Source: Candidatus Pacearchaeota archaeon
GTDB lineage: Archaea; Nanobdellota; Nanobdellia; Pacearchaeales; GW2011-AR1
DNA: 42,554 nucleotides
Direction: 5' to 3'
Assembly (NCBI GenBank): GCA_016186365.1
Contig: JACPLT010000007.1
Coordinates: forward strand, 1 to 42,554
In this document: positions 383 to 23,061 of the stretch, one piece after another
Layout: each line of letters begins with the position of its first letter
Position numbering within the stretch: position 1 is the stretch's first letter
The notes under the pieces: model-generated
Told to the model about the DNA's origin: nothing
Databases searched by the model: none
The model's input: only the letters and a program-made list of their open reading frames with translations
Position numbers and translations under genes: made by a program

Positions 383-652
383 TTATCTCAAACCCTTCAA
401 TGTCCCAGAAACCCGCATAACTCTAATCCCCGCGAGCTCAAAGCTCGCCCTAACTTTATCTAGCTCTTCCCTATTCACTGCAATTATATTCTCCTTAACA
501 AAAACAGGTGCCGCCCTGGCCCATCCTAATATACCAATATATTCAAGTATAGCTTCCTCTATCTCTTTTCTGCTTTTCCCTTTCTCAACAAGGAGGTATC
601 TCCTGTTATCTCTCATTGTTGGCTTTAGATTTTTTTCTTGTTTTCTTTGCAT
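383..652 (-). CDS. rnp2: RNase P protein component Pop5/Rnp2 (start may be internal ATG at 616)
   Basis: KPTMRDNRRYLLVE...LGWARAAPVFVKENIIAVNREELDKVRASFELAGIRVMRVSGTLKGLR resembles archaeal Pop5. Confidence 0.75.
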   Translation of the reverse strand: MQRKQEKNLKPTMRDNRRYLLVEKGKSRKEIEEAILEYIGILGWARAAPVFVKENIIAVNREELDKVRASFELAGIRVMRVSGTLKGLR

Positions 653-3410
653 TTTTCAGTCTTATGACTTTTATAATATTTTTTTCTATTAATACGAATA
701 AAACAAATATTCCCAACACAACCACAATCAAAACAATTCTCAGCTTTATATATTTATTTCTGTTTGTAGGCAGTTCAATCTCTTCTGCTCCATCTCTGTC
801 TGAACTCTCTTCAATTGTATCGTTTCTTGCAACTGTCTGATTCATAATAGTATTGTTCCCAGTCATAGTTTTATTTTTAGGAACACTGACAGAACCTCCA
901 CCACCTCCCCCAGCATTATTATTCCCAGCAGGCAGGTTGACAGTCAGGCTTCTTGCAGAAGAGCTCCCATAATTTCCAGCACTATCACTGCAATTAATTT
1001 TCCAGCTGTAACTTCCAGAATCTAGTGATTTTGTTATTGTATTTGTAAGATTGTTTATTGCAGAGCTATTCCCTGTTGAAGAGCTCGATGTTCCAGTTAT
1101 CACTAATCTGCATTCAGCTATTCCGTTGCTGTCTGAAGCATTAAACTGAAAATTAACAGAGCTTGAAGTGCTTGTATCTCCCTCTCCCGGAGAGAGGCTG
1201 TTAACCACAGGAGAAGTCAAATCCACTCCGAAAAATAGCCGTGCACTTTCATTCACATTTCCAGAGCTGTCATTGCAATAAACTGTCAGGTTATACTCGT
1301 ATTCATATATGCTTTCATTTATGCTTGAATTTAGGTAATAAAAAAAAGTCTGCCCAGACTTATTCATGCTTATGTTCTCGTTATTAAAAGAAATCCAACA
1401 GTTATCCAGACTTTCATTTGAGCTCAAGTTAAGATTAATCCCATTATGCCAGCTGTTATTAATTAAAGAAACATTCAATGCAGGAGAGGAATTATCATAA
1501 ACAAAGCTAAAATTTGCCTGCCCAGAAGAGTTAAAACTATTATTATTGAACGCCCTGCAATTCCAGCTGTATGAATCTGAATAGCTGAATGTGAAATTAA
1601 AAGCAGTTTCATTAAATATGCCCGAAATTGTTTTATTCTCCTGATAAAAAAGCGAAGAAGAATTCCAAATATAGAAAGTCATGTTTGTCAGCTCTCCATT
1701 CTGCGTGGTAGTATTACAGCTGAAATTTCTTCCCGCAATATTAGTGTGAGTATTATTCACAGGAGAAATCAGTTCAACTCCCAACAAATTTATTATCAGG
1801 CTGAAATTTCTTCCAGAATAAGAGCAATTATTATTTCTGTCGCAGGAATAGCAGTTCCAGAGATAATTTTGATAATCTAATGTTACATTCCAGCTGCTCG
1901 AATTATACTCTCCAGAAATATTTGAAGTATTTGTATAATTGACCGCCCCGCTGGAATTATAAACAAGCAGGGTGATATTTTGTAACTGCAAATCTGTAGC
2001 ATTGCAGGAAAAGCTAACATTTCTATTGATAGTGACAAAATTATTTGCAGGACTCATTAGGCTGGAATTAGAATATTTCGAGTCCATTCTGAGTATTGCA
2101 GAATAAACATCAATTCTTGAAAAATTCAGCCCGCTTCCAGAATCTGAAATTCTTTTTCCAGTTAAATTAAACATGCTTTCAATTTCACTTGTCATTAATA
2201 TTTTTCCGCTTTCAATCTGATTAAACTCTCTTAATAATGCGAATGCTCCTGCTGCATGCGGAGTAGCCATTGAAGTTCCCTGATTCCCGCAATATCCCCC
2301 TGTCCTGCAGGTAGAGTTTATCTGTGTTTGGCTGTTGCTAGACAGCCCTCCAGGAGCAAACAAATCAGTTATGCTGTTTCTATTTGAATAACTGGCGACA
2401 GTCTCATCTTTAGCACTCGCACCTATAGCTGTTGAATTTCTTATGCACGCAGGAGAGGATATTGCACTAGTATTTCCATTATTCCCACTTGCTACAATAA
2501 CCGAAATATTTTTTGCTATCGCTGCGTTGATTGATGAGGTAAGTGAATCTTCACTATCGCAATAGCTTGAATAGCAGTATTGCGGTTGCAGCACGCAATC
2601 AGTCCCTAAACTCATACTTATCACACTTATGTTAAATATAGAAGAATTATCCACACACCAGTCAATTCCAGCTTTGATATTCGCACTGCTTCCAGAGCCC
2701 CCAGAATTCAGCGCTTTTATGATAATCAGTTTTGCTTCAGGAGCTATTCCATTTATGCTTCCATTTGCAGCCGCAATTCCAGCAACATGAGTTCCATGCC
2801 CGTTATCATCTAAGGGATTATTATCACTATTAACAAAATCCCATCCTCCAAGAACCTTGCAGTTTGATGAAGCATTATTCTCCCCATAACATCCGCCCAA
2901 ATCCGAATGGCTGTAATTTATCCCAGTATCAATTATACAGATTGCCTGCCCTCTTCCAGTTATATTCTCTCCTGAAATCTGTATTCTCCAGCCTGTCGTA
3001 GCATTAATTATCACAGCAGAATCCTGCAAGAGTGCAACAACAGGGTAATCATAATAAACTCTCTTAACACTTTCATCATTTTCTAAATCCTCCAAATCTT
3101 TTTTTGTAATCTCCATCGCTATCTCTTTTTTAAATTCTCTTTCCAGCTTTTCATCTCCGATTTTATCTATCACACTATCCTTTGCTTTCTCAATATCTAT
3201 ACTTTTATTTTTGTCAAAAAATCTAGACACAAATCCCTCACCTTTTTTATCGTTAATTTCAATAATAACATTAACCCTATCTTTTATTTTGAGTTCATTC
3301 ACAACATTCTCGCTTATCTTTTCATATTTGGCATACCCTATACTGGCAAAATTAACAAAAACAAGCAAAAATATCATGCAGGTAATTAGTACCACTTCTC
3401 CCTTTTTCAT
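606..3410 (-). CDS. Secreted S8 (subtilisin-like) serine peptidase with Asn/Ser-rich Ig-like repeats and C-terminal TM anchor
   Basis: Signal peptide; catalytic motifs IIDTGINYSHSD, NGHGTHVAGIAA, GTSMATPHAAG; C-terminal hydrophobic helix plus basic tail. Confidence 0.93.
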   Translation of the reverse strand: MKKGEVVLITCMIFLLVFVNFASIGYAKYEKISENVVNELKIKDRVNVIIEINDKKGEGFVSRFFDKNKSIDIEKAKDSVIDKIGDEKLEREFKKEIAMEITKKDLEDLENDESVKRVYYDYPVVALLQDSAVIINATTGWRIQISGENITGRGQAICIIDTGINYSHSDLGGCYGENNASSNCKVLGGWDFVNSDNNPLDDNGHGTHVAGIAAANGSINGIAPEAKLIIIKALNSGGSGSSANIKAGIDWCVDNSSIFNISVISMSLGTDCVLQPQYCYSSYCDSEDSLTSSINAAIAKNISVIVASGNNGNTSAISSPACIRNSTAIGASAKDETVASYSNRNSITDLFAPGGLSSNSQTQINSTCRTGGYCGNQGTSMATPHAAGAFALLREFNQIESGKILMTSEIESMFNLTGKRISDSGSGLNFSRIDVYSAILRMDSKYSNSSLMSPANNFVTINRNVSFSCNATDLQLQNITLLVYNSSGAVNYTNTSNISGEYNSSSWNVTLDYQNYLWNCYSCDRNNNCSYSGRNFSLIINLLGVELISPVNNTHTNIAGRNFSCNTTTQNGELTNMTFYIWNSSSLFYQENKTISGIFNETAFNFTFSYSDSYSWNCRAFNNNSFNSSGQANFSFVYDNSSPALNVSLINNSWHNGINLNLSSNESLDNCWISFNNENISMNKSGQTFFYYLNSSINESIYEYEYNLTVYCNDSSGNVNESARLFFGVDLTSPVVNSLSPGEGDTSTSSSVNFQFNASDSNGIAECRLVITGTSSSSTGNSSAINNLTNTITKSLDSGSYSWKINCSDSAGNYGSSSARSLTVNLPAGNNNAGGGGGGSVSVPKNKTMTGNNTIMNQTVARNDTIEESSDRDGAEEIELPTNRNKYIKLRIVLIVVVLGIFVLFVLIEKNIIKVIRLKNAKKTRKKSKANNER

Positions 3411-5972: not shown

Positions 5973-7301
5973 TTAAATCTGCTTAACAAACCCCTTCTTA
6001 AACTCCGCCTTATCAACAATAACTTTATTCTCAACTCTTCCAGCTGAAGAATCCCTGACAACTATATACTCTCCTAATGGAAGGTAAACTATTTTATTCT
6101 TCCCAACAACAGAGAAAAATGGAATTTCATCTCCCAATGTTTCTCTGCTAACAATCCCACAATCTGAATTGCCAAGCGAGCAGCTTGCAGGATAACCTTT
6201 ATTTCCTAAAAATCCTGCATTAAATTTTGGTTTAAAACTAACCTTAATATTCTTCCCCTTAGCAATGCTGGAATCAATCTTTAAGCAATTCACTTTTTTT
6301 GTTATATCGCTAAACATCCTATTCTTTAATTTAAATGCAATCACACTTGATTTTGTGCATCCCTCTTTCTCTGCTATTCCTGCTAAGTCTAAATTAAAAT
6401 TAACTTTATTTCCAAGATATTTATAATTATTAGATGGAGTATTAATCTCCAACTCCCAGATATAATTATTGACATATTTGCCAGCAATAGAAACTTGAAC
6501 AACCCCCCTTGTATTGCTGGTTAAAAATTCAGGAGATTCGTACTCTGTCTTAATTTCAGCTTCTATTCCAGGAATCAACCCAATTAAAGGAACCTGTTTT
6601 CTTTTAACTTCATCATTGAAATAATATAATGTAGAATTCAATTCTTTTATTCCAGTATTATAAGTTTTGCATAAATCATATTCTACAACAAATTTCAGAA
6701 CAATATTAGGATTTTTATTGTGTGTTCCTGAATTATACCAATGAAATTCTTCCTCATATACCTCTTCTTCTGTTTTGCCAAAATATTCAATCCTTTTGTT
6801 CATCTCGCTGTCATTTATTCCAATAAATATAGAAAAAGAATTCTCGCTGTCAAATTTAATCCCTCTTTCAAACATCTTTTCATTAATAATCTGGCTTAAT
6901 TTGTTATTCAAATAAAAAGTATAAGCATTATGCTCAATATTCATGCTGTAGCATAATTCATATCCTTCAGGAATTATTTCTTCTAAAATAAACCCTTCAA
7001 AGTTGTCCTCATTATTAAAATAAACAACTCTCTTAATTCTCATACTCTCTCCGCTGTAAAACTTTATCTCCTGCTTCTTGTCAGAATATGCAAGATTACT
7101 GGCAGAAGAATAAACCTGCGGATTTCCAATGCTAGGAATAGCGGTTAAAATATCTTCGCTATAACTAGAAACAGGATTATTCACAATATTTCCTGTAATT
7201 CTGCTCCAGCTAAATAAAACTATAACCCCAATTATTGCGATAATTGCAATTCCTATTCCTAGTTTAATCCATCCACCATAATTTTGCTCTTTGTTTTTCA
7301 T
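5973..7301 (-). CDS. Single-TM surface protein, 442 aa; partner protein of module A
   Basis: N-terminal TM (IKLGIGIAIIAIIGVIVLFSW); same length and near-identical over long stretches to 18467..19795; overlaps the upstream giant gene by 38 nt. Confidence 0.85.
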   Translation of the reverse strand: MKNKEQNYGGWIKLGIGIAIIAIIGVIVLFSWSRITGNIVNNPVSSYSEDILTAIPSIGNPQVYSSASNLAYSDKKQEIKFYSGESMRIKRVVYFNNEDNFEGFILEEIIPEGYELCYSMNIEHNAYTFYLNNKLSQIINEKMFERGIKFDSENSFSIFIGINDSEMNKRIEYFGKTEEEVYEEEFHWYNSGTHNKNPNIVLKFVVEYDLCKTYNTGIKELNSTLYYFNDEVKRKQVPLIGLIPGIEAEIKTEYESPEFLTSNTRGVVQVSIAGKYVNNYIWELEINTPSNNYKYLGNKVNFNLDLAGIAEKEGCTKSSVIAFKLKNRMFSDITKKVNCLKIDSSIAKGKNIKVSFKPKFNAGFLGNKGYPASCSLGNSDCGIVSRETLGDEIPFFSVVGKNKIVYLPLGEYIVVRDSSAGRVENKVIVDKAEFKKGFVKQI

Positions 7302-10300
7302 CTTTATCTCCTGTTCTGAATATGAAACCTAGAAATTCTTTATTGCTTGCTATACAATCTGAATTGCTATCTAAACCTGCAGGCATGTCAGCAATACAGG
7401 ACTTCATTTCACAAACTCCATCTATACATTTGTGAACACAATTTAAATCCCAAACAGGGCATAATAACCCTGCACAATCCTGACTGGTTATGCATTCTTT
7501 TTCATTGGTATAAAGATAGTTTAACTGATTATACAAATTAAAATCAAGATAACCCAAATTCATCAGCTCTTGAGCAGCAGTTATTTCTTCACTGCTTATT
7601 TTTGATGCTTGTTTTCTATTATTTTTATAAAAATTTTCACAATCTGCTGTTATCTGGTTTATTTGTATCTCTGCAATTTCATCTTCATCTGAAAATGTTT
7701 CTGGTAATACTTCTATCTTTAAGTTATCAAATTCAATAACAGGATTTTGATTGCTTAGTGTAAAGATTTTAGAATCTAAAATCGTATGCTCACAAGGCAT
7801 ATTTTCATCTTTCATCATAAATATCTTAAAATTATCTGGCTTATCTGCTATGCTTAATTTTACATTATTAATCTCTCCACTTAATAATTTTGTCTGGTAT
7901 AATACTCCTGCTTCCTCAAATCCAGGGTATGCTGATTCAGGATTTGTTGAATAATAAATAGTCTCAAGAGGGACAATACCACAACTTGCTCCACTCTCCA
8001 AATTTCCCGCACAACTTCCAGGAACATCACAAATATTTGCACAGCTTGTAACCCCCGTCGCATCTCTGCTCTTACTGCATAATCCCATAAGAGACCCTAA
8101 AAGTTCAAAACTATTTACTGAAGTAGAAGCAGTAGCCTTTGTTTTAAAAACTTTTGAAACTGCCTCAATAAATGCTTTGCCCTCTATTCCCTCTCCTGTT
8201 TTGCACCCAAGAAAAACTATTTCGCCAAAACATCTTCTTGTTTTAAGGTATTTGTTTTCTTTCTCTATTTGCAAAACCGAATTTAAGTCAAACACTTGCG
8301 CAGAATCATCCATAAATGTCTGAAATCCAGAATTTCCATGATTTAAAAAGAAAACTTTTGGCTTATTGCTGCATTTCTGGCAAATATTATCTAAAAAACC
8401 AAATACTTCAGCAACACTTTTAAATGAATAGTATGTATTTTGGCTAGTATAATCACGATTCCCAAGCTTAATATCCAGCCCATCTACCTGATATGGCCAT
8501 TCTTTAAAGTTTGTATTAAAAAATAATGAGGTCGGGCAATTTTCACATTCTGCTTTAAATTCAAAAACATTTAATGAAGATTTAGTTTGATGCTCCACAC
8601 AAATTTTATTATTTTGACAATTTTCAATAACATCTTGAATACATATATCCTCTCTATTTCTTTCATATTTCTGAATTTTATCGGCAGAATTGCATTTTGA
8701 ACCGCATCGTGCAACAAGAAAGTGACTTTCTAATTTATCATTACAAGCATCATAAAATGTATTACTCACGCATTTTTGTATCAAAGGGTCAAAATTAAAA
8801 GTAACACTCTCCGCATTGCAGAATCCTTTTGCCATGTTGCATTTTTTTAGAGTTAATTGCCCATCTAGTCTGTTGCAAGAAGAAGGACAATTAGGTTTTT
8901 GTTCATTACAACAAGCCGAAAGAACACATTCTTCAGGTTTGCCCTTAGAATTATACTTTATTTCTTCATCATCCTTGCAACATTTCGAGCTATACTCTTT
9001 TTCTCCAATACCATATCTAGATTTTGAAATACCTTCGAATTTATTAACACATTCTCGATTAGGAACGCATTTATCAGGTTTTCCGTAATCATAAGTAGAT
9101 AATTCATTTTCCTTACAGCATAAACTAGTATAGAAAATTTCTTTAATTCCATCAGTTTTACCATACCATGAACCGGAAATCCCTTCAAAATATTTTACAC
9201 ATTCTTCTCTAGGTTTACACTCATAAGGCCTCCCTTCATAATAAGTTATCTCTTCATCATCCTTGCAACATTTCGAGCTATACTCTTTTTCTTTAATCCC
9301 GTTTTTAGTTCCATATTCGGAATAGGGGGTGCCTTCAAATAAAGTACAGGGAAGGAGTTTACATTCAGTGGGCTTTCCAAAAGAGTACTCTGCAATTTCA
9401 TTTTCCTTGCAACATTTCGAGCTATACTCTTTTTCTCCAATACCATATCTAGATTTTGGAATACCTTCGAATTTATTAACACATTCTCGATTAGGAACGC
9501 ATTTATCGGGCATTCCATTTGTATATTCTGCAATTTCATTTTCCTTGCAACACTTTAAAGCATAATTCTCTCGTGCAATTCCATTAACAACTCTAAAGCT
9601 TGATATTGGGACTCCCTCAAATTTATTCACACAATCTTCATTAAGCACACATTTACTAGGCTTTCCCCAGTAATATTCTGCAATCTCATTTTCCTTGCAA
9701 CACAAAGAGCTATAATATGCCTGTTTTTCTCCTTTCTTATCTACTCCTAATTCTCCGATAGAGACGCCTTCAAATAAATTGCAACTAGCATAATCTCTGC
9801 AGTCGCGAGGCATTCCATTTGTATATTCTGCAATTTCATTTTCTACACAACAAATATAAGTATACCCTCCCTCTCCAGGACCATGCCAAGATCCTGGAAT
9901 TCCCTCAAATTTTCTCGGCTTGTCGGCATTGCATCCCAAGTCAAAATTAACAGGTGGAGTCAAATCAATTGGACACTGGCAATTTTGAACATCACTGCAA
10001 ATTTGTTCGCTTGAAGAAGGAACACTAAAAATATAATCACAATGATGCCCATTAGCATCACATCTCTCGCATATTTGCATAGTTTCTCCTGTAACTTTTC
10101 TAAAAACCCACCTATTATTTGCATCATTATCCGAATAGCAGCTCGAACTTGTGCTTCTAACATTGCTTACATAGTCACATTGTTTAGTAAGAGGAGGATA
10201 AACTAAACTAGCAAATGGCTCATTATTCACACTTGTTTCTTGAGGGCAGTTTGGAGAAAATCCGCAATACCCTTTATTTTTCAGCGAACATCGAGAATTC

Positions 10301-10536
10301 TCGCTATCACATCCATAATTTTTGCAGTTATATGCCTGAATATTCGGTTCACATCTACCATTAATCAGCTGGCATGGATAATTATAATTATTAGAAATCA
10401 TATAGTAATTCTCACAAGTTCCTAAACTAGCTTCTGAACAGGTTCCGATTGGGGTTCCAGAGCAAGCACCATAAACTCCCGCCAAACTCAAACTCGCAAC
10501 TAAAATCAATCCTAATATCAACACCGCTTTTCTCAT
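7264..10536 (-). CDS. Giant secreted Cys-rich repeat protein with caspase-like (DUF4347-like) domain; module A
   Basis: Signal peptide MRKAVLILGLILVASLSLAGVYG; about 7 units of type FEG(I/V)xxSxYG...EYSSKCCKENEIAEYxxGxPxxCxxxxxCxxK; FFLNHGNSGF...GEIVFLGCKTGEGIEGKAFIEAVSKVFKTKATAST; C-terminal DSNSDCIASNKE. Confidence 0.85.
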   Translation of the reverse strand: MRKAVLILGLILVASLSLAGVYGACSGTPIGTCSEASLGTCENYYMISNNYNYPCQLINGRCEPNIQAYNCKNYGCDSENSRCSLKNKGYCGFSPNCPQETSVNNEPFASLVYPPLTKQCDYVSNVRSTSSSCYSDNDANNRWVFRKVTGETMQICERCDANGHHCDYIFSVPSSSEQICSDVQNCQCPIDLTPPVNFDLGCNADKPRKFEGIPGSWHGPGEGGYTYICCVENEIAEYTNGMPRDCRDYASCNLFEGVSIGELGVDKKGEKQAYYSSLCCKENEIAEYYWGKPSKCVLNEDCVNKFEGVPISSFRVVNGIARENYALKCCKENEIAEYTNGMPDKCVPNRECVNKFEGIPKSRYGIGEKEYSSKCCKENEIAEYSFGKPTECKLLPCTLFEGTPYSEYGTKNGIKEKEYSSKCCKDDEEITYYEGRPYECKPREECVKYFEGISGSWYGKTDGIKEIFYTSLCCKENELSTYDYGKPDKCVPNRECVNKFEGISKSRYGIGEKEYSSKCCKDDEEIKYNSKGKPEECVLSACCNEQKPNCPSSCNRLDGQLTLKKCNMAKGFCNAESVTFNFDPLIQKCVSNTFYDACNDKLESHFLVARCGSKCNSADKIQKYERNREDICIQDVIENCQNNKICVEHQTKSSLNVFEFKAECENCPTSLFFNTNFKEWPYQVDGLDIKLGNRDYTSQNTYYSFKSVAEVFGFLDNICQKCSNKPKVFFLNHGNSGFQTFMDDSAQVFDLNSVLQIEKENKYLKTRRCFGEIVFLGCKTGEGIEGKAFIEAVSKVFKTKATASTSVNSFELLGSLMGLCSKSRDATGVTSCANICDVPGSCAGNLESGASCGIVPLETIYYSTNPESAYPGFEEAGVLYQTKLLSGEINNVKLSIADKPDNFKIFMMKDENMPCEHTILDSKIFTLSNQNPVIEFDNLKIEVLPETFSDEDEIAEIQINQITADCENFYKNNRKQASKISSEEITAAQELMNLGYLDFNLYNQLNYLYTNEKECITSQDCAGLLCPVWDLNCVHKCIDGVCEMKSCIADMPAGLDSNSDCIASNKEFLGFIFRTGDKDEKQRAKLWWMD
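8973..9078. repeat. Near-identical 106-bp internal repeat (second copy 9405..9510)
   Basis: CCTTGCAACATTTCGAGCTATACTCTTTTTCTCCAATACCATATCTAGATTTTG..ATACCTTCGAATTTATTAACACATTCTCGATTAGGAACGCATTTATC; 2 mismatches by eye; 432-bp offset (in frame). Confidence 0.85.
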
Positions 10537-10691
10537 ATTCTCTTATACTAATTAGCATATTTATTCTTTTCTATATAAACTCCAGTATAACCACAGGGTA
10601 TATTTCTTGTGTGCCACAACTTTTTACCGAAAGATTTATATAGGTTAGCTGTATAAACATATAGTATTAATGTATAAATTAAAGAAACACG

Positions 10692-11282
10692 ATGATAACA
10701 AATAATGAAAAAAGAATCTTGAAATTTTTGCTGACTCATTTTAATAGCGATTATTCTATTAATGAAATCGCGAAAAAATGCGATTTAGCTCCAAATGGGG
10801 CTTATGAAATATTAAAAAAATTCGAAGAAAAGGGAGTTTTGTTGATTAAAAAAATAGCTAATTCAAGATCATATAAAATTAATTTTGATAATGCGGAAGC
10901 AAATAAATTATTAGAACTTGCACTAATGCCAAATTATAAAGAATCTAAGATAAGCTATAGATATAATGATTTAAAACCTTTAGAAGGAATAACTAAATTA
11001 TGTATGATTTTTGGGTCTTATATTACGAATAAAGAAAAACCAAATGATATTGATATTTTATTTGTTATAAAAAAATCAGATTATAAAAAATATTCCGAAA
11101 TTTTAGAAAGAGTAAAAAGAGCAATTCCATTTAAATTGCACGATGTTATTCAAACAAAAGAGGATTTAATTAAAAGTATTAAAACCAGGGAAGAAATATT
11201 TGTAAAAATAATATCCGAGGGCGTTGTACTATGGGGTCATGAGTTTTTAATTAAGGTGATAAGAGATGCAATCAAAAAATAA
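10692..11282 (+). CDS. wHTH plus minimal nucleotidyltransferase (MNT) protein, putative antitoxin
   Basis: N-terminal winged-helix; GSYITNKEKPNDIDILFV matches the nucleotidyltransferase GSx(9)DxD motif. Confidence 0.8.
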   Translation: MITNNEKRILKFLLTHFNSDYSINEIAKKCDLAPNGAYEILKKFEEKGVLLIKKIANSRSYKINFDNAEANKLLELALMPNYKESKISYRYNDLKPLEGITKLCMIFGSYITNKEKPNDIDILFVIKKSDYKKYSEILERVKRAIPFKLHDVIQTKEDLIKSIKTREEIFVKIISEGVVLWGHEFLIKVIRDAIKK

Positions 11283-11778
11283 ACTTGATGAATGCTTTAA
11301 AGAAGGTGAAAGAGGAGGAGAACGCCATAAGGGGCTAAAAAAGATAGATATAAGCCGCGAATTAATAAATAAACATCTAGCAAAAGCCACCCATAACTTG
11401 AATGCAATTATAGAATTTAAGAATATTGGATATTCTGATTGGTCCGCAAGTGCCGCTTTTTATGCGCTTTATCATTGTTTATTAGCATTGCTTATTAAGT
11501 TTGGTTATCAATCAAGAAATCAAACTTGCACATTTGCTTTTATTGAAGGTTTAATTAACAAAGGGAAAATCTCCTTGAAATTAGAAGAGTTAAAAGAAAT
11601 TTTTGACAAAGATATTACAGAAAACTTGGCCCATAGTGAAAAAATATTAGATATAAGGGAAAATATGCAATACTCATTTAAAACATCAATGGAAAAAGAG
11701 GAGTTTAATAAATTACTTGAAAGAACAAAACTATTATTTGATAAAATAAGGAAAGAAATAGAAAAAGAAGACAAATAA
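11266..11778 (+). CDS. HEPN-domain protein, putative toxin paired with MNT
   Basis: HLAKATHNLNAIIEFKNIGYSDWSASAAFYALYHCLLALLIKFGYQSRNQTCTFAFIEGL; overlaps MNT gene by 17 nt. Confidence 0.75.
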   Translation: MQSKNKLDECFKEGERGGERHKGLKKIDISRELINKHLAKATHNLNAIIEFKNIGYSDWSASAAFYALYHCLLALLIKFGYQSRNQTCTFAFIEGLINKGKISLKLEELKEIFDKDITENLAHSEKILDIRENMQYSFKTSMEKEEFNKLLERTKLLFDKIRKEIEKEDK

Positions 11779-18466: not shown

Positions 18467-19795
18467 TCACACATTCTTAACAAACCCCTTCTTAAACTCC
18501 TTCTTATCAATAACAACTTTATTCTCAACTCTCCCAGCCGAAGAATCCCTGACAACTATATACTCTCCTAATGGAAGATAAACTATTTTATTCTTCCCAA
18601 CAACAGAGAAAAATGGAACTTCATCTCCCAATGTTTCTCTGCTCACAATCCCACAATCCGAATTGCCAAGCGAGCAACTTGCAGGATAACCCTTATTTCC
18701 CAAAAATCCAGCATTAAATTTGGGCTTAAAACTAACCTTAATATTTTTGCCTTTAGCAATGCTAGAATCAATCTTTAAGCAATTCACTTTCTTTGTTATC
18801 TCACTAAACATTCCATTCTTTAATTTAAATGTAATCATGCTAGCTTTTGAGCATCCCTCTTTCTCTGCTATTCCCACTAAATTCAGATTAAAATTAACTT
18901 TATTCCCTTGATATTTATAACTATTAGAGGGAGTGTCAATCTCCAATTCCCAGATATAATTATCGACATATTTGCCAGCAATAGAAACTTGAACAACTCC
19001 ATTTGTATTGCTAGTTAAAAATACAGGAGCTTCATACTCTGTCTTAATCTCAGCTTCTATTCCTGGAATTAATCCTATTAAAGGAACCTGTTTTCTTTTA
19101 ATTTCATCATTGAAATAATAAAGTGTAGAATTCAATTCCTTTACTCCGGTATTGTAAGTTTTGCATAAGTCATAACTTATAACAAACTTCATAACAACAT
19201 TAGAATTTTTATTTTGTGTTCCTGAATTATACCAATTAAATTCTTCCCGATACACCTCTTCTTCTGTTTTGCCAAAATATTCAATCCTCTTATTCATCTC
19301 GCTGTCATTTATCCCAATAAATATAGAAAAGGAATTTTCACTATCAAAGTTAATGCCTCTTTCAAACATCTTTTCATTAATAATCTGGCTTAACTTATTA
19401 TTAAAATAAAAAATATAAGCTTCATGATTAATATTCAAGCTGTCGCATAATTCATATCCTTCAGGAACTATCTCTTCTAAAATAAACCCTTCAAAGTTGT
19501 CCTCATTATTAAAATAAACAACTCTCTTAATTCTCACACTTTCTCCGCTATAAAACTTTATCTCCTGCTTCTTGTCAGAATATGCCAGATTACTGGCAGA
19601 AGAATAAACCTGCGGATTTCCAATACTCGGAATAGAAGCTAAAATATCCTCACTATAACTAGACGCAGGATTATTTACAATATTCCCTGTAATTTTGCTC
19701 CAGCTAAATAAAACAACAATCGCAATTATAGCGATAATTGCAATTCCTATTCCCAGTTTAATCCATCCACCATAATTTTGCTCTTTGTTTTTCAT
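18467..19795 (-). CDS. Single-TM surface protein, 442 aa; partner protein of module B
   Basis: Paralog of 5973..7301, same length, ungapped; overlaps upstream giant gene by 38 nt. Confidence 0.85.
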   Translation of the reverse strand: MKNKEQNYGGWIKLGIGIAIIAIIAIVVLFSWSKITGNIVNNPASSYSEDILASIPSIGNPQVYSSASNLAYSDKKQEIKFYSGESVRIKRVVYFNNEDNFEGFILEEIVPEGYELCDSLNINHEAYIFYFNNKLSQIINEKMFERGINFDSENSFSIFIGINDSEMNKRIEYFGKTEEEVYREEFNWYNSGTQNKNSNVVMKFVISYDLCKTYNTGVKELNSTLYYFNDEIKRKQVPLIGLIPGIEAEIKTEYEAPVFLTSNTNGVVQVSIAGKYVDNYIWELEIDTPSNSYKYQGNKVNFNLNLVGIAEKEGCSKASMITFKLKNGMFSEITKKVNCLKIDSSIAKGKNIKVSFKPKFNAGFLGNKGYPASCSLGNSDCGIVSRETLGDEVPFFSVVGKNKIVYLPLGEYIVVRDSSAGRVENKVVIDKKEFKKGFVKNV

Positions 19796-22700
19796 CTCTA
19801 TCTCCTGTTTTGAATATAAAACTTAAAAATTCTTTATTATCAAGAATTCCATCATCATTTGAATCAGGCCCTCCCAAGCAGTCCTGCGGACATGAGAAGA
19901 AATTTTCCCCAGTATAATAATCACAGACACTATCCGGATAACAAGTTGGAGTAGTCATCCTGCATTCTCCAGAGATACATTTATATTCACAGTCTTGTTT
20001 TCCCATAAGACATAATCTTGCAGAACAATCTTCATTAGATGTACACCAGTTATTATAATCTCCATAAAAAAGTTCATTATAACCTTGATTTATCAAATCT
20101 TCGGGACTAACTAAGAAATCAAGATAAAAATTAGTGCAATCTACTTTCAGTTTGTTTATCTCAATTTGAGCAGATTCTCCATAGCTTGTAAAAGTTTCAG
20201 GCAGTATCTCAATTTTAAGATTATCAAAATTTATTGCAGGACTGCTTGCGCTCAATGTGAATGTCTGTGTTTTTTCAATATCATAACCGCACATCATTTC
20301 TTCATCTTCTATCTCTGCGATCTTATTGTTTTTTGTATTCCCAGAAATTCTTAATTTTACTTCTCCAGGATTTCCACTTATAATTTTTGTCTGATATGCT
20401 TCTCCTTGCCCGTCAAATCCAGGATAAATATATTTAGAATTTGTTGAATAAAATATTGTTTGAAGTTGTGTTTGAGCAGGATTTGAATTTATTTTTATTT
20501 TTTCTTCACTAATACTGCAAGGAGAAGAGTCACTTAAACGATAATTTATCATAGCACTGGGCATAATTGCCTCGGTATGCAACTCGGTTTCTACCGCATT
20601 TTTAAACTTTGCTCCGGAATCTCCCATCCCAACACTGCATCCCCCAAAAATTATTTTTTTAAAACACCCAATAGTTTTGGGATTTTTTTCTACAATTGCA
20701 TGTAAATTATCGGTACTTAATGCAATCTCGTCATAAGAATATCCTACTGAAGGTTCTCCAAACCATTGCAATCCAGGTCTGCCATGATTTGATAAAAATA
20801 AAGTATATTTACGTTGAGAATTGCTGCATTTTTCACATGCATCATTTAAAAATTTAAAAACTTCATTTATCGTTTTAAAATTGAAAAAAATATTTTGATT
20901 TGAATATTCTCCACCTTGAATAGTTATTTCCATTCCATCATGTAAAGAATAAAAATCTCTATGAGTAGAAAACAAAAGAGTGTCAAAATCATTGCAACTC
21001 TCGCATTGGGCGTTAACTATCCTATCTGAAAAAGATTTATGGGTTATACAAACTTGATTATCTCCACACCCAAAGAGAGCACCTTTGAAGCACCCCTCGC
21101 CATCTTGACATACATATTTTTGGATAGTATTAAAATCCAAACATTGCGAGCCACAAGATTTATCATTATCAAATCCATTGCAATCTATTTCATCATATTG
21201 GATTTCTTCTCCCCGAACATTAGTTTTCACATTTTTTACACAGACATCCCCTAAATTCGGATTATATGATGTTTTTATAATATTTGAACAAACCCCAATA
21301 TCAGTCTGACATAAAAATTTTTCAAATATTGGGGCGTCTTTATTTCTAGAACATATTCTGGGGCAAATTGGATTTTCACTGCTACAATAAAATTTATTTT
21401 TATTTTTTTCAGAAGTACAAAAAACAGGTCTTCCGTCATGGTCATAAAGTGCTTTCTCATCTTTTTTACAGCATATAGATGTTTCCATATTCTTTCCTTT
21501 AGCATAATCCCCTATCCCATACTTAATACCTAATATATCACAACAACCCTTAGGATATCCAAACTCATGGGTAGTTATATCTTCTCCCTCCCCACAACAT
21601 AGTGCTTTTTCAGAAATTTTATCTTGGGAGTATTCTTCTCTACCATATTTAAGACGGGAATTGGGGCAGCAAGATTTTGGTTCTCCAGTAGTATCTCTTA
21701 AAACTCCCATGCCTTCTTTACAGCATATAGATGTTTCCATATTCTTTCCTTTAGCATAATCTCCTCTGCCATATCCGCGGTTCTCTTCTTTGCAGCATTC
21801 TAAAGGTTCTCCCTTTGAGTTTGTAGTAGCTACCGCTCCATTTTCCTTGCAACAAATAGATTTTGAGCCATCTCTACCAAATTTAATATTATTTTCATTA
21901 CAACAAAAAATTGGCAATTGCCCTCCTTCTAAAGCTAATATTCGTGGGATTTCTCCTTCATTGCAACAAACCGCTTGAGGCAGTTCGCCGGTAAAAGAAT
22001 ATTTTCCAGTACCCTTTACAAGATTTCCTTCGGGGCAACACTCTATTGGAATTCCTGGAAAAATTATAGCTGCTTCTTCTCCACGGTTGCAACACAAAGA
22101 GGTTGGATAACTCCCTTCAGATGCGTAATCTAATAATCCCCATTTATTATTCTCCTCTGAACAACAAGAAGGCACACCTTCAATATTGTAACTAGCTATT
22201 TTATCTGCACTACAACAGATAAAATCATATGTTTTCTTGTAGACATATTTTTTAGGTTTATTTGAATCATCACATCCAGGATCAGGATTAATGAGAATTG
22301 GAGAAGGGTTTTCTATAATGCAATCACATCCATTTTTTGAGTTACAAGAAGGATTTCCAGTAGTATCTGTTCCAGAATAAGTCACATCACATTTTTTACC
22401 CGATTTATCGCACCATAAACAGGATTTATGACAAACTCCGGTGATACATTCGGAATTATGAAAATCCCAAAAATCATCTGAATTGCTTCGTTTTGGTCTG
22501 CAAAAAGAAGATTTTTTATCTTCAAAACCTCCGTAACTGCACCCTATCATATAGTTATTGCAATCTTCTATAGGAAATGGACAATTTGTTCCAGTTAAAA
22601 TTTCCTGCAAATTAAATTTTGAGTTTCTTATATCTCTTGGAGTATAAGGAGAGCAGCCAGTAAATGAGCATACTCCGTTATTAGTGATAGAACATGCAGA

Positions 22701-22976
22701 ATTGTCACTGCATCCAAGATTTTTGCAAGTGCAATATCCCATACCAATATTTAAGCTACACCCTAAAAAAGGAGTACACATCCCAGAAGTTTGAGACGCT
22801 TGTGTCCAAAAACAAGGAACATTTTTCTCACTTATTTCAACATAAGAACTCTCACATTGAATTTTATTCAAATTTTCACAAGAACTTACTTCGGTTCCAG
22901 AGCAAGCACCATAAACTCCTGCCAAACTCAAACTCACAACTAAAATCAACCCCAGCATCAACACCGCTTTTCTCAT
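19758..22976 (-). CDS. Giant secreted Cys-rich repeat protein with caspase-like (DUF4347-like) domain; module B
   Basis: Signal peptide near-identical to module A; repeat units with CC...CC (e.g. KGKNMETSICCKEG); LFLSNHGRPGLQWFG...IIFGGCSVGMGDSGAKFKNAVE; C-terminal EF-hand DSNDDGILDNKE. Confidence 0.85.
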   Translation of the reverse strand: MRKAVLMLGLILVVSLSLAGVYGACSGTEVSSCENLNKIQCESSYVEISEKNVPCFWTQASQTSGMCTPFLGCSLNIGMGYCTCKNLGCSDNSACSITNNGVCSFTGCSPYTPRDIRNSKFNLQEILTGTNCPFPIEDCNNYMIGCSYGGFEDKKSSFCRPKRSNSDDFWDFHNSECITGVCHKSCLWCDKSGKKCDVTYSGTDTTGNPSCNSKNGCDCIIENPSPILINPDPGCDDSNKPKKYVYKKTYDFICCSADKIASYNIEGVPSCCSEENNKWGLLDYASEGSYPTSLCCNRGEEAAIIFPGIPIECCPEGNLVKGTGKYSFTGELPQAVCCNEGEIPRILALEGGQLPIFCCNENNIKFGRDGSKSICCKENGAVATTNSKGEPLECCKEENRGYGRGDYAKGKNMETSICCKEGMGVLRDTTGEPKSCCPNSRLKYGREEYSQDKISEKALCCGEGEDITTHEFGYPKGCCDILGIKYGIGDYAKGKNMETSICCKKDEKALYDHDGRPVFCTSEKNKNKFYCSSENPICPRICSRNKDAPIFEKFLCQTDIGVCSNIIKTSYNPNLGDVCVKNVKTNVRGEEIQYDEIDCNGFDNDKSCGSQCLDFNTIQKYVCQDGEGCFKGALFGCGDNQVCITHKSFSDRIVNAQCESCNDFDTLLFSTHRDFYSLHDGMEITIQGGEYSNQNIFFNFKTINEVFKFLNDACEKCSNSQRKYTLFLSNHGRPGLQWFGEPSVGYSYDEIALSTDNLHAIVEKNPKTIGCFKKIIFGGCSVGMGDSGAKFKNAVETELHTEAIMPSAMINYRLSDSSPCSISEEKIKINSNPAQTQLQTIFYSTNSKYIYPGFDGQGEAYQTKIISGNPGEVKLRISGNTKNNKIAEIEDEEMMCGYDIEKTQTFTLSASSPAINFDNLKIEILPETFTSYGESAQIEINKLKVDCTNFYLDFLVSPEDLINQGYNELFYGDYNNWCTSNEDCSARLCLMGKQDCEYKCISGECRMTTPTCYPDSVCDYYTGENFFSCPQDCLGGPDSNDDGILDNKEFLSFIFKTGDRDEKQRAKLWWMD

Positions 22977-23061
22977 AAAACTTTAAATAAAAATGGGTTT
23001 TTATTTATTTCTCTTTTTCATATTCTGGCAAAATCCGTAAAAATCCGCAAGTTTTATAAAT

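Follow-up and report, generated by a model that had tools for sequence, protein, structure and literature searches.

A candidate surface-displayed cysteine peptidase of the DUF4347 type and its membrane partner in a Pacearchaeota archaeon

Two copies of a two-gene module

The window, that is, the whole 42,554-nucleotide stretch of DNA analyzed here, belongs to a Candidatus Pacearchaeota archaeon (contig JACPLT010000007.1) with a genome of 0.97 Mb that is 82% complete. Its archaeal genes, among them those for TrmB, the CCA-adding enzyme, FttA, and the proteasome, and its genome size point to a DPANN archaeon. On its minus strand lie two copies, A and B, of a two-gene module. Gene 1 of module A (7264..10536, minus strand) encodes a secreted, cysteine-rich protein of 1,090 residues (7.3% Cys) with a caspase-like domain; gene 1 of module B (19758..22976, minus strand) encodes its counterpart of 1,072 residues. 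The two proteins are 31% identical over their full length, and both contain 7–8% cysteine.

The protein of module A is built from an array of distinct parts. It opens with a signal peptide (MRKAVLILGLILVASLSLAGVYG; 10468..10536, minus strand) followed by ACSGT; the signal of B is nearly the same, and the consensus of the two, read by eye like the signals themselves, is MRKAVLxLGLILVxSLSLAGVYG. Behind it lie about 7 Cys-rich repeats of the form CCKENEIAEYxxGxPxKC...FEGIxxSxYG (8917..9924, minus strand), the number of which varies among homologues. The DUF4347/caspase-like catalytic domain, delimited by profile, model, and alignment, covers residues 665–806 (8119..8544, minus strand). Next comes a conserved beta-rich domain, residues 858–969 (TIYYSTN...YPG...YQT...GE; 7630..7965, minus strand), placed by model and alignment. 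The C-terminal tail (7267..7539, minus strand) comprises a Cys cluster and the pattern DSNSD...EFLGFIF...WW. In B, alignment and model place the caspase-like domain at residues 659–808 (20553..21002, minus strand) and the beta-rich domain at residues 839–950 (20127..20462, minus strand).

The predicted catalytic residues are a histidine and a cysteine. In A, these are His733 (8338..8340, minus strand), within KVFFLNHGNSGFQTF (NHGNSG), and the putative nucleophile Cys778 (8203..8205, minus strand), within GEIVFLGCKTGEGIEGKAF, also given as GCKTGEGIEGKAF. In B, the alignment identifies His731 (20784..20786, minus strand), within YTLFLSNHGRPGLQWFG (NHGRPG), and Cys780 (20637..20639, minus strand), within KIIFGGCSVGMGDSGAKF, also given as GCSVGMGDSGAKF. 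The pattern common to A and B is NHGxxG...GCxxGxGxxGxxF. An earlier note on this DNA, made from the letters alone, had read the open reading frame at 7264–10536 and an HG/GC dyad in both modules; both reading frames are present, the codons of all four residues check, and the dyad is invariant in five of five homologues.

Gene 2 encodes a partner protein of 442 residues with an N-terminal transmembrane anchor, and overlaps gene 1 by 38 bp. In module A it lies at 5973..7301 (minus strand), as defined by the reading frame and by an alignment of ectodomains (A7). In module B it lies at 18467..19795 (minus strand), with the same length and the same 38-bp overlap, and its product is 89% identical to the partner of A.

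Divergence between the modules is unevenly distributed. The opening 85 nt of gene 1, from about the ATG, are 93% identical (10453–10537 versus 22893–22977). A block of 1,363 nt that takes in the final 80 nt of gene 1 and continues through the partner gene is 91% identical (5982–7344 versus 18476–19838). The middle of gene 1 is for the most part 23–49% identical in amino acids. By the NG86 method, dN is 0.055 and dS 0.33 for the partner; for gene 1, dN is 0.65 and dS, at 1.48, is near saturation. These constant ends suggest one of two histories: gene conversion that homogenized them, or exchange of the middle as a cassette between modules.

Two further loci of the window deserve mention. The gene at 606–3410 (minus strand) codes for another likely surface protease, a secreted subtilase (S8) that has Ig-like domains and, at its C-terminus, a TM-like helix. 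At 10692–11778 (plus strand), a nucleotidyltransferase gene and a HEPN gene overlap and resemble an MNT-HEPN toxin–antitoxin pair; a similar two-gene arrangement stands upstream of a further module of this genome, described below as C8 (L053:2–1179).

Conservation and fold of the peptidase-like domain

Profile searches of the class and the phylum find the domain in only 4 genomes, which represent 3 families: the genome of A and B, with two copies; G041 (L005/L037; JAHIRT010000054.1), of the same family; and G261 and G447, one from each of two further families. Alignment A5 joins A and B with the proteins of G041 (L037), G261 (L038), and G447 (L045), at 27–40% identity to A. The motif histidine, the glycines at +1 and +4, the GC pair, and the subsequent Gly and Phe are invariant in all five sequences; the downstream beta-rich domain likewise has invariant Tyr, Pro-Gly, Tyr-Gln, and Gly positions. 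Such invariance at this level of identity places the HG...GC motif beyond chance. The loops around the dyad are variable, and so is the linker behind the catalytic domain. Repeats, counted by eye, number about 7 in A and B, several in G041, and 1 in G261, with none obvious in G447. Repeat number varies while dyad and beta domain stay constant, and the Cys cluster behind the beta domain is common to the homologues; the conserved core is therefore the peptidase-like domain, the beta domain, and the Cys cluster. The protein of G447 apparently has its own N-terminal membrane helix.

Other candidates were rejected. Matches in G362 and G414 are galactose-1-phosphate uridylyltransferase-like reading frames that share FKNHGKEGG, and those in G138 and G262 align to no more of the model than its C-terminal end. 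Scans of IMG/VR with two alignments and of a plasmid collection returned no relatives, so nothing here points to an origin in viruses or plasmids.

The family to which the domain belongs was approached through DUF4347 (Pfam PF14252; curated cut-off 24.6 bits). The G447 protein exceeds the cut-off, with 25.2–27.6 bits (E = 1.5e-5 for the whole protein, 2.9e-6 for the domain). Under the cut-off are A, with 18–21 bits (E = 0.0022 whole protein, 3.4e-4 domain), G041, with 18 bits (E = 0.0025 whole protein), and G261, with 12 bits (E = 0.15); B has no DUF4347 match in the Pfam scan. When the DUF4347 profile was set against an alignment of three members (A1), A and one other matched and B did not. 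A and B are thus members of DUF4347 only via their homology to G447. Three Cys-rich secreted paralogues that lack the motif have no DUF4347 match at E <= 1.

Searches with PF14252 also recover elongation factor EF-2. Most matches of about 740 residues were rejected on this ground, as EF-2 with the motif HIHHGKT; the EF-2 reading frames L008, L013, L022, and L026 are recurrent false positives. In a per-genome search A reaches E = 6.8e-5, versus 5e-5 to 2e-3 for chance EF-2 reading frames in sister genomes. Since the E-value of A is no better than these, one DUF4347 match is insufficient by itself.

Profile–profile comparison extends this evidence. In hhalign, seven DUF4347-like proteins from archaea of this class, each with HG and SCS, match the family at E = 1.7e-5 and a probability of 78.7% over 109 columns that span the dyad region; a control, an unrelated family of the A/B genome, gives a probability of 0.3%. 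Archaea of this class carry diverse small or C-terminal DUF4347-like domains with HG...SCS (L006, L007, L009, L017, L021, L023, and L028), and several such proteins have lipoprotein- or signal-like N-termini. Against all PDB sequences, the A5 profile has seven matches, all of them legumains (clan CD, C13) aligned at NHG, with E between 0.06 and 0.38. With phmmer, neither A nor B matched any PDB sequence, and G447 gave only one weak, irrelevant match. No Peptidase_C25 (gingipain) domain appears in the Pfam scans.

Clan CD peptidases possess a His-then-Cys dyad with a glycine adjoining the histidine; His and Cys stand at the C-terminal ends of strands beta3 and beta4, and small strands lie between beta3 and helix 3 (PMC4357240). 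The order of the dyad and the adjoining glycine are those of the invariant HG and GC of all five homologues, and the strand arrangement is found in the predicted secondary structure of models A and B. In the AlphaFold model of A, numbered by domain position in A5 (the cysteine numbers 3–302 below follow this scheme; Cys114 is Cys778), strand 63–66 precedes H69, strands 74–76 and 84–86 and a helix at 87–95 follow, and strand 108–111 precedes C114; model B has the same order. His and Cys are thus predicted each directly after one of two successive strands, with two short strands and a helix between, an order that gives no sign of the two lying far apart. Mean pLDDT is 61 for A and 64 for B, and values in the catalytic part are mostly about 70–89; modeling is poor for the initial strands of the caspase fold, and confidence is low in the linker behind the catalytic domain.

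Foldseek searches of the PDB with model A return mainly caspases, together with a GPI transamidase chain and Tce1 (9qpe_G), which has the highest match probability (0.99); the top-ranked match, 7w6b, has a poor TM score. Model B returns mainly caspases and a C80 cysteine-protease domain. No gingipain or other C25 entry is among the matches listed. As a control, model A gave an incoherent list against viral structures. The clan CD matches all have E > 0.02, with models of moderate pLDDT, so none is significant singly. Caspase entries in the PDB are redundant. For these reasons, and given the poor TM score of 7w6b, we count agreement across clan CD families rather than the number of matches. Tce1 is PA0256, a Pseudomonas T6SS effector that contains DUF4347 (PMC8262886), and it has been described as a putative cysteine protease whose dyad is His186/Cys240 (PMC13323088). 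Being a DUF4347 protein, it makes the sequence and structure lines converge on one family. Conservation plus predicted fold therefore support the assignment of a clan CD, DUF4347-type caspase-fold domain to A and B. The earlier note had proposed such a His–Cys domain in a secreted archaeal protein, and here conservation, profiles, hhalign, and models agree with it; clan CD similarity is seen in the hhalign result and in the legumain and Foldseek matches.

The cysteines of the domain point in the same direction. Seven are conserved in at least 4 of the 5 sequences of the aligned region. Two candidate pairs, C55/C105 and C251/C302, are found in all five; a third, C3/C58, is present in 4 and missing as a pair from G261. 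Six of the seven may plausibly pair in this way, leaving C114 (Cys778 of A) as the sole conserved cysteine that lacks a plausible partner, as expected for a thiol nucleophile in a disulfide-rich secreted protein. Many caspase-fold domains are inactive; from the residues and the models we infer that the domain of A and B is probably a catalytically active peptidase.

The membrane partner and its paralogous modules

The ectodomain of the partner occurs in five copies in the genome: those of A and B, and three more labeled C4, C8, and C20. At all three of these additional loci, the gene immediately preceding the partner gene encodes a secreted Cys-rich protein. In C4, the pair is flanked on one side by the gene of a T2SSE ATPase and on the other by that of a T2SSF membrane protein (Pfam); this Cys-rich gene and its partner occupy the middle of a type IV-pilus-like operon. 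That operon (L052, G000:C4, 986–11011, minus strand) contains the T2SSE ATPase, T2SSF-type membrane proteins, and several pilin-like genes.

In C8, the partner contains an internal segment homologous to the tail of the A and B proteins (B 1015–1070, 48% identity, E = 5.5e-10), followed by the partner ectodomain. Fusion of separately encoded parts is a usual sign of joint function, and the joining in C8 of parts that A and B encode in two genes suggests that these parts work together. Gene 1 of C8 (L053:2014–4545, G000:C8) encodes a paralogue with YLHERLHGGSSKMTGLCDEY and, later, FSIMGH; as a motif, this resembles the site of zincin metallopeptidases, and the protein has no Pfam match and no convincing PDB match. 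The five modules thus include two caspase-like peptidase proteins and one protein with a zincin-like HExxH...DEY motif.

Four features make it probable that the protease and its partner belong to a single complex at the cell surface: the 38-bp overlap of their genes, the five-copy ectodomain, the copy within a pilus-like operon, and the copy fused to the A/B tail. Physical tethering of the gene 1 product by the gene 2 product would fit this arrangement. The partner family was not found in the 377 other genomes of the class that were searched, and a partner gene was not found in G041, G261, or G447; within this search the pairing is specific to the A/B lineage, and tethering would apply at most there.

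A proposed surface protease and its alternatives

We favor, as a reasonably probable reading, a surface-displayed cysteine peptidase of the DUF4347 type that cuts outside proteins and is paired with gene 2 in a two-gene operon; the proteins of A and B probably act as cell-surface proteases. The gene 1 product would be exported through its signal peptide and would fold into a disulfide-rich stalk of variable Cys repeats and a caspase-fold domain with the His–Cys dyad, with the beta-rich domain directly behind the peptidase and then a tail of Cys and EF-hand-like character. The gene 2 product would be held in the membrane by its N-terminal TM helix and would probably tether gene 1 via this tail. 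Displayed on the archaeal surface, the peptidase would cut host, prey, or neighbor proteins; alternatively, its substrates may be extracellular proteins used as food. Either way, the peptidase would act on proteins that come from another cell or from the environment. A wider reading, which we advance tentatively, treats the five related surface modules as a DPANN system for delivery or display of proteases, with one scaffold ectodomain, linked through one of its copies to the type IV-pilus-like operon, and interchangeable secreted Cys-rich proteins, and with A and B diversified between constant 5' and 3' ends.

The peptidase might instead serve maturation, cutting its own chain or its partner to yield a mature surface adhesin rather than acting on foreign proteins. 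C80 toxin domains and gingipain zymogens process themselves. Autoprocessing is common in clan CD (PMC4357240), the linker after the catalytic domain is variable and modeled with low confidence, and gene 1 and its partner are encoded together. We nevertheless regard this role as unlikely: G447 and G261 keep the dyad with repeats absent or nearly so, and the linker contains no conserved cleavage-like motif in A5. The suggestion of the earlier note that the enzyme processes its own Cys-rich repeats falters on the same two proteins, and because repeat number falls to none obvious while the dyad stays, we reject the idea that the domain mainly serves to process its own repeats.

A second alternative, to which we give little credence, is that the caspase-fold domain is retained for binding and is not catalytic. 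The protein around it is rich in repeats and resembles an adhesin, a paralogue of the partner lies in a pilus operon, and the loops that flank the dyad vary. Against such a pseudo-enzyme, the histidine, glycines, and cysteine are invariant across deep divergence, and this cysteine lacks a plausible disulfide partner while the other six conserved ones can pair.

Clan CD also includes enzymes that join proteins: GPI transamidase and the C25 sortase PorU both belong to it, and legumain has ligase activity. A transpeptidase that links secreted proteins to a surface anchor would be in keeping with the GPI transamidase among the Foldseek matches for A, with legumain as the only PDB profile match, and with the pairing with a membrane protein from a family of related surface modules. 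Such a sortase-like role is improbable, given that no recurrent C-terminal sorting tag was noticed in a non-systematic look and that the family occurs in only 4 of the genomes searched. Most improbable is that the HG...GC motif is a chance resemblance within a Cys-rich protein that has no kinship to clan CD, since, although EF-2 reading frames reach similar DUF4347 strength and individual fold matches have weak E-values, the motif is invariant in five homologues, G447 exceeds the curated cut-off, two models and a profile search agree on one clan, and the hhalign control is clean.

The proposed surface peptidase resembles several known systems in part. With DUF4347 proteins, including Tce1/PA0256, A and B share the HG...GC motif and its spacing, profile matches, and the Foldseek match to the solved structure of Tce1. 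The differences are that the domain sits in a secreted Cys-rich archaeal protein, where it probably has internal disulfides and is immediately followed by a beta-rich domain, that this protein is paired with a membrane partner, and that most of the family scores under the Pfam cut-off. Legumains (C13) are the only PDB profile matches and caspases (C14) dominate the Foldseek lists, yet neither has significant sequence similarity to A and B, which lack a recognizable prodomain or Asp-processing features. Gingipains (C25) are likewise secreted, surface-located His–Cys peptidases with a beta/Ig-like domain after the catalytic one (PMC4357240), but they have no sequence match or listed Foldseek match to A and B and a different N-terminal architecture. 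The closest conceptual parallel, in which we claim no membership, is offered by the SPEARE proteins of Nanohaloarchaeota: these carry a serine protease alongside adhesion domains, and degradation of the host S-layer is their proposed function (PMC6642349). Both are DPANN surface proteins that join a protease to adhesion-type modules; compared by description, SPEAREs differ in their serine protease, their far larger size, and an intracellular restriction-enzyme-like part. Neither gene of the modules contains a serine protease, LamG/adhesion, or restriction-enzyme-like domain in the Pfam scan.

In a study of Pseudomonas T6SS effectors that includes DUF4347, and in titles and abstracts on DPANN archaea and caspases, we found no described equivalent of the architecture of stalk, peptidase, beta domain, tail, and partner. 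The domain itself is of a known kind, a divergent member of DUF4347 and clan CD; the paired anchor gene and the paralogous modules go beyond the earlier note. Little is understood about the proteins by which DPANN archaea with small genomes attack other cells, attach to them, or feed on them. A probable surface protein that has a conserved thiol-peptidase domain and a defined membrane partner provides a concrete, testable candidate for such interactions. It links the poorly characterized DUF4347 to archaeal cell surfaces and offers exact residues for mutation.
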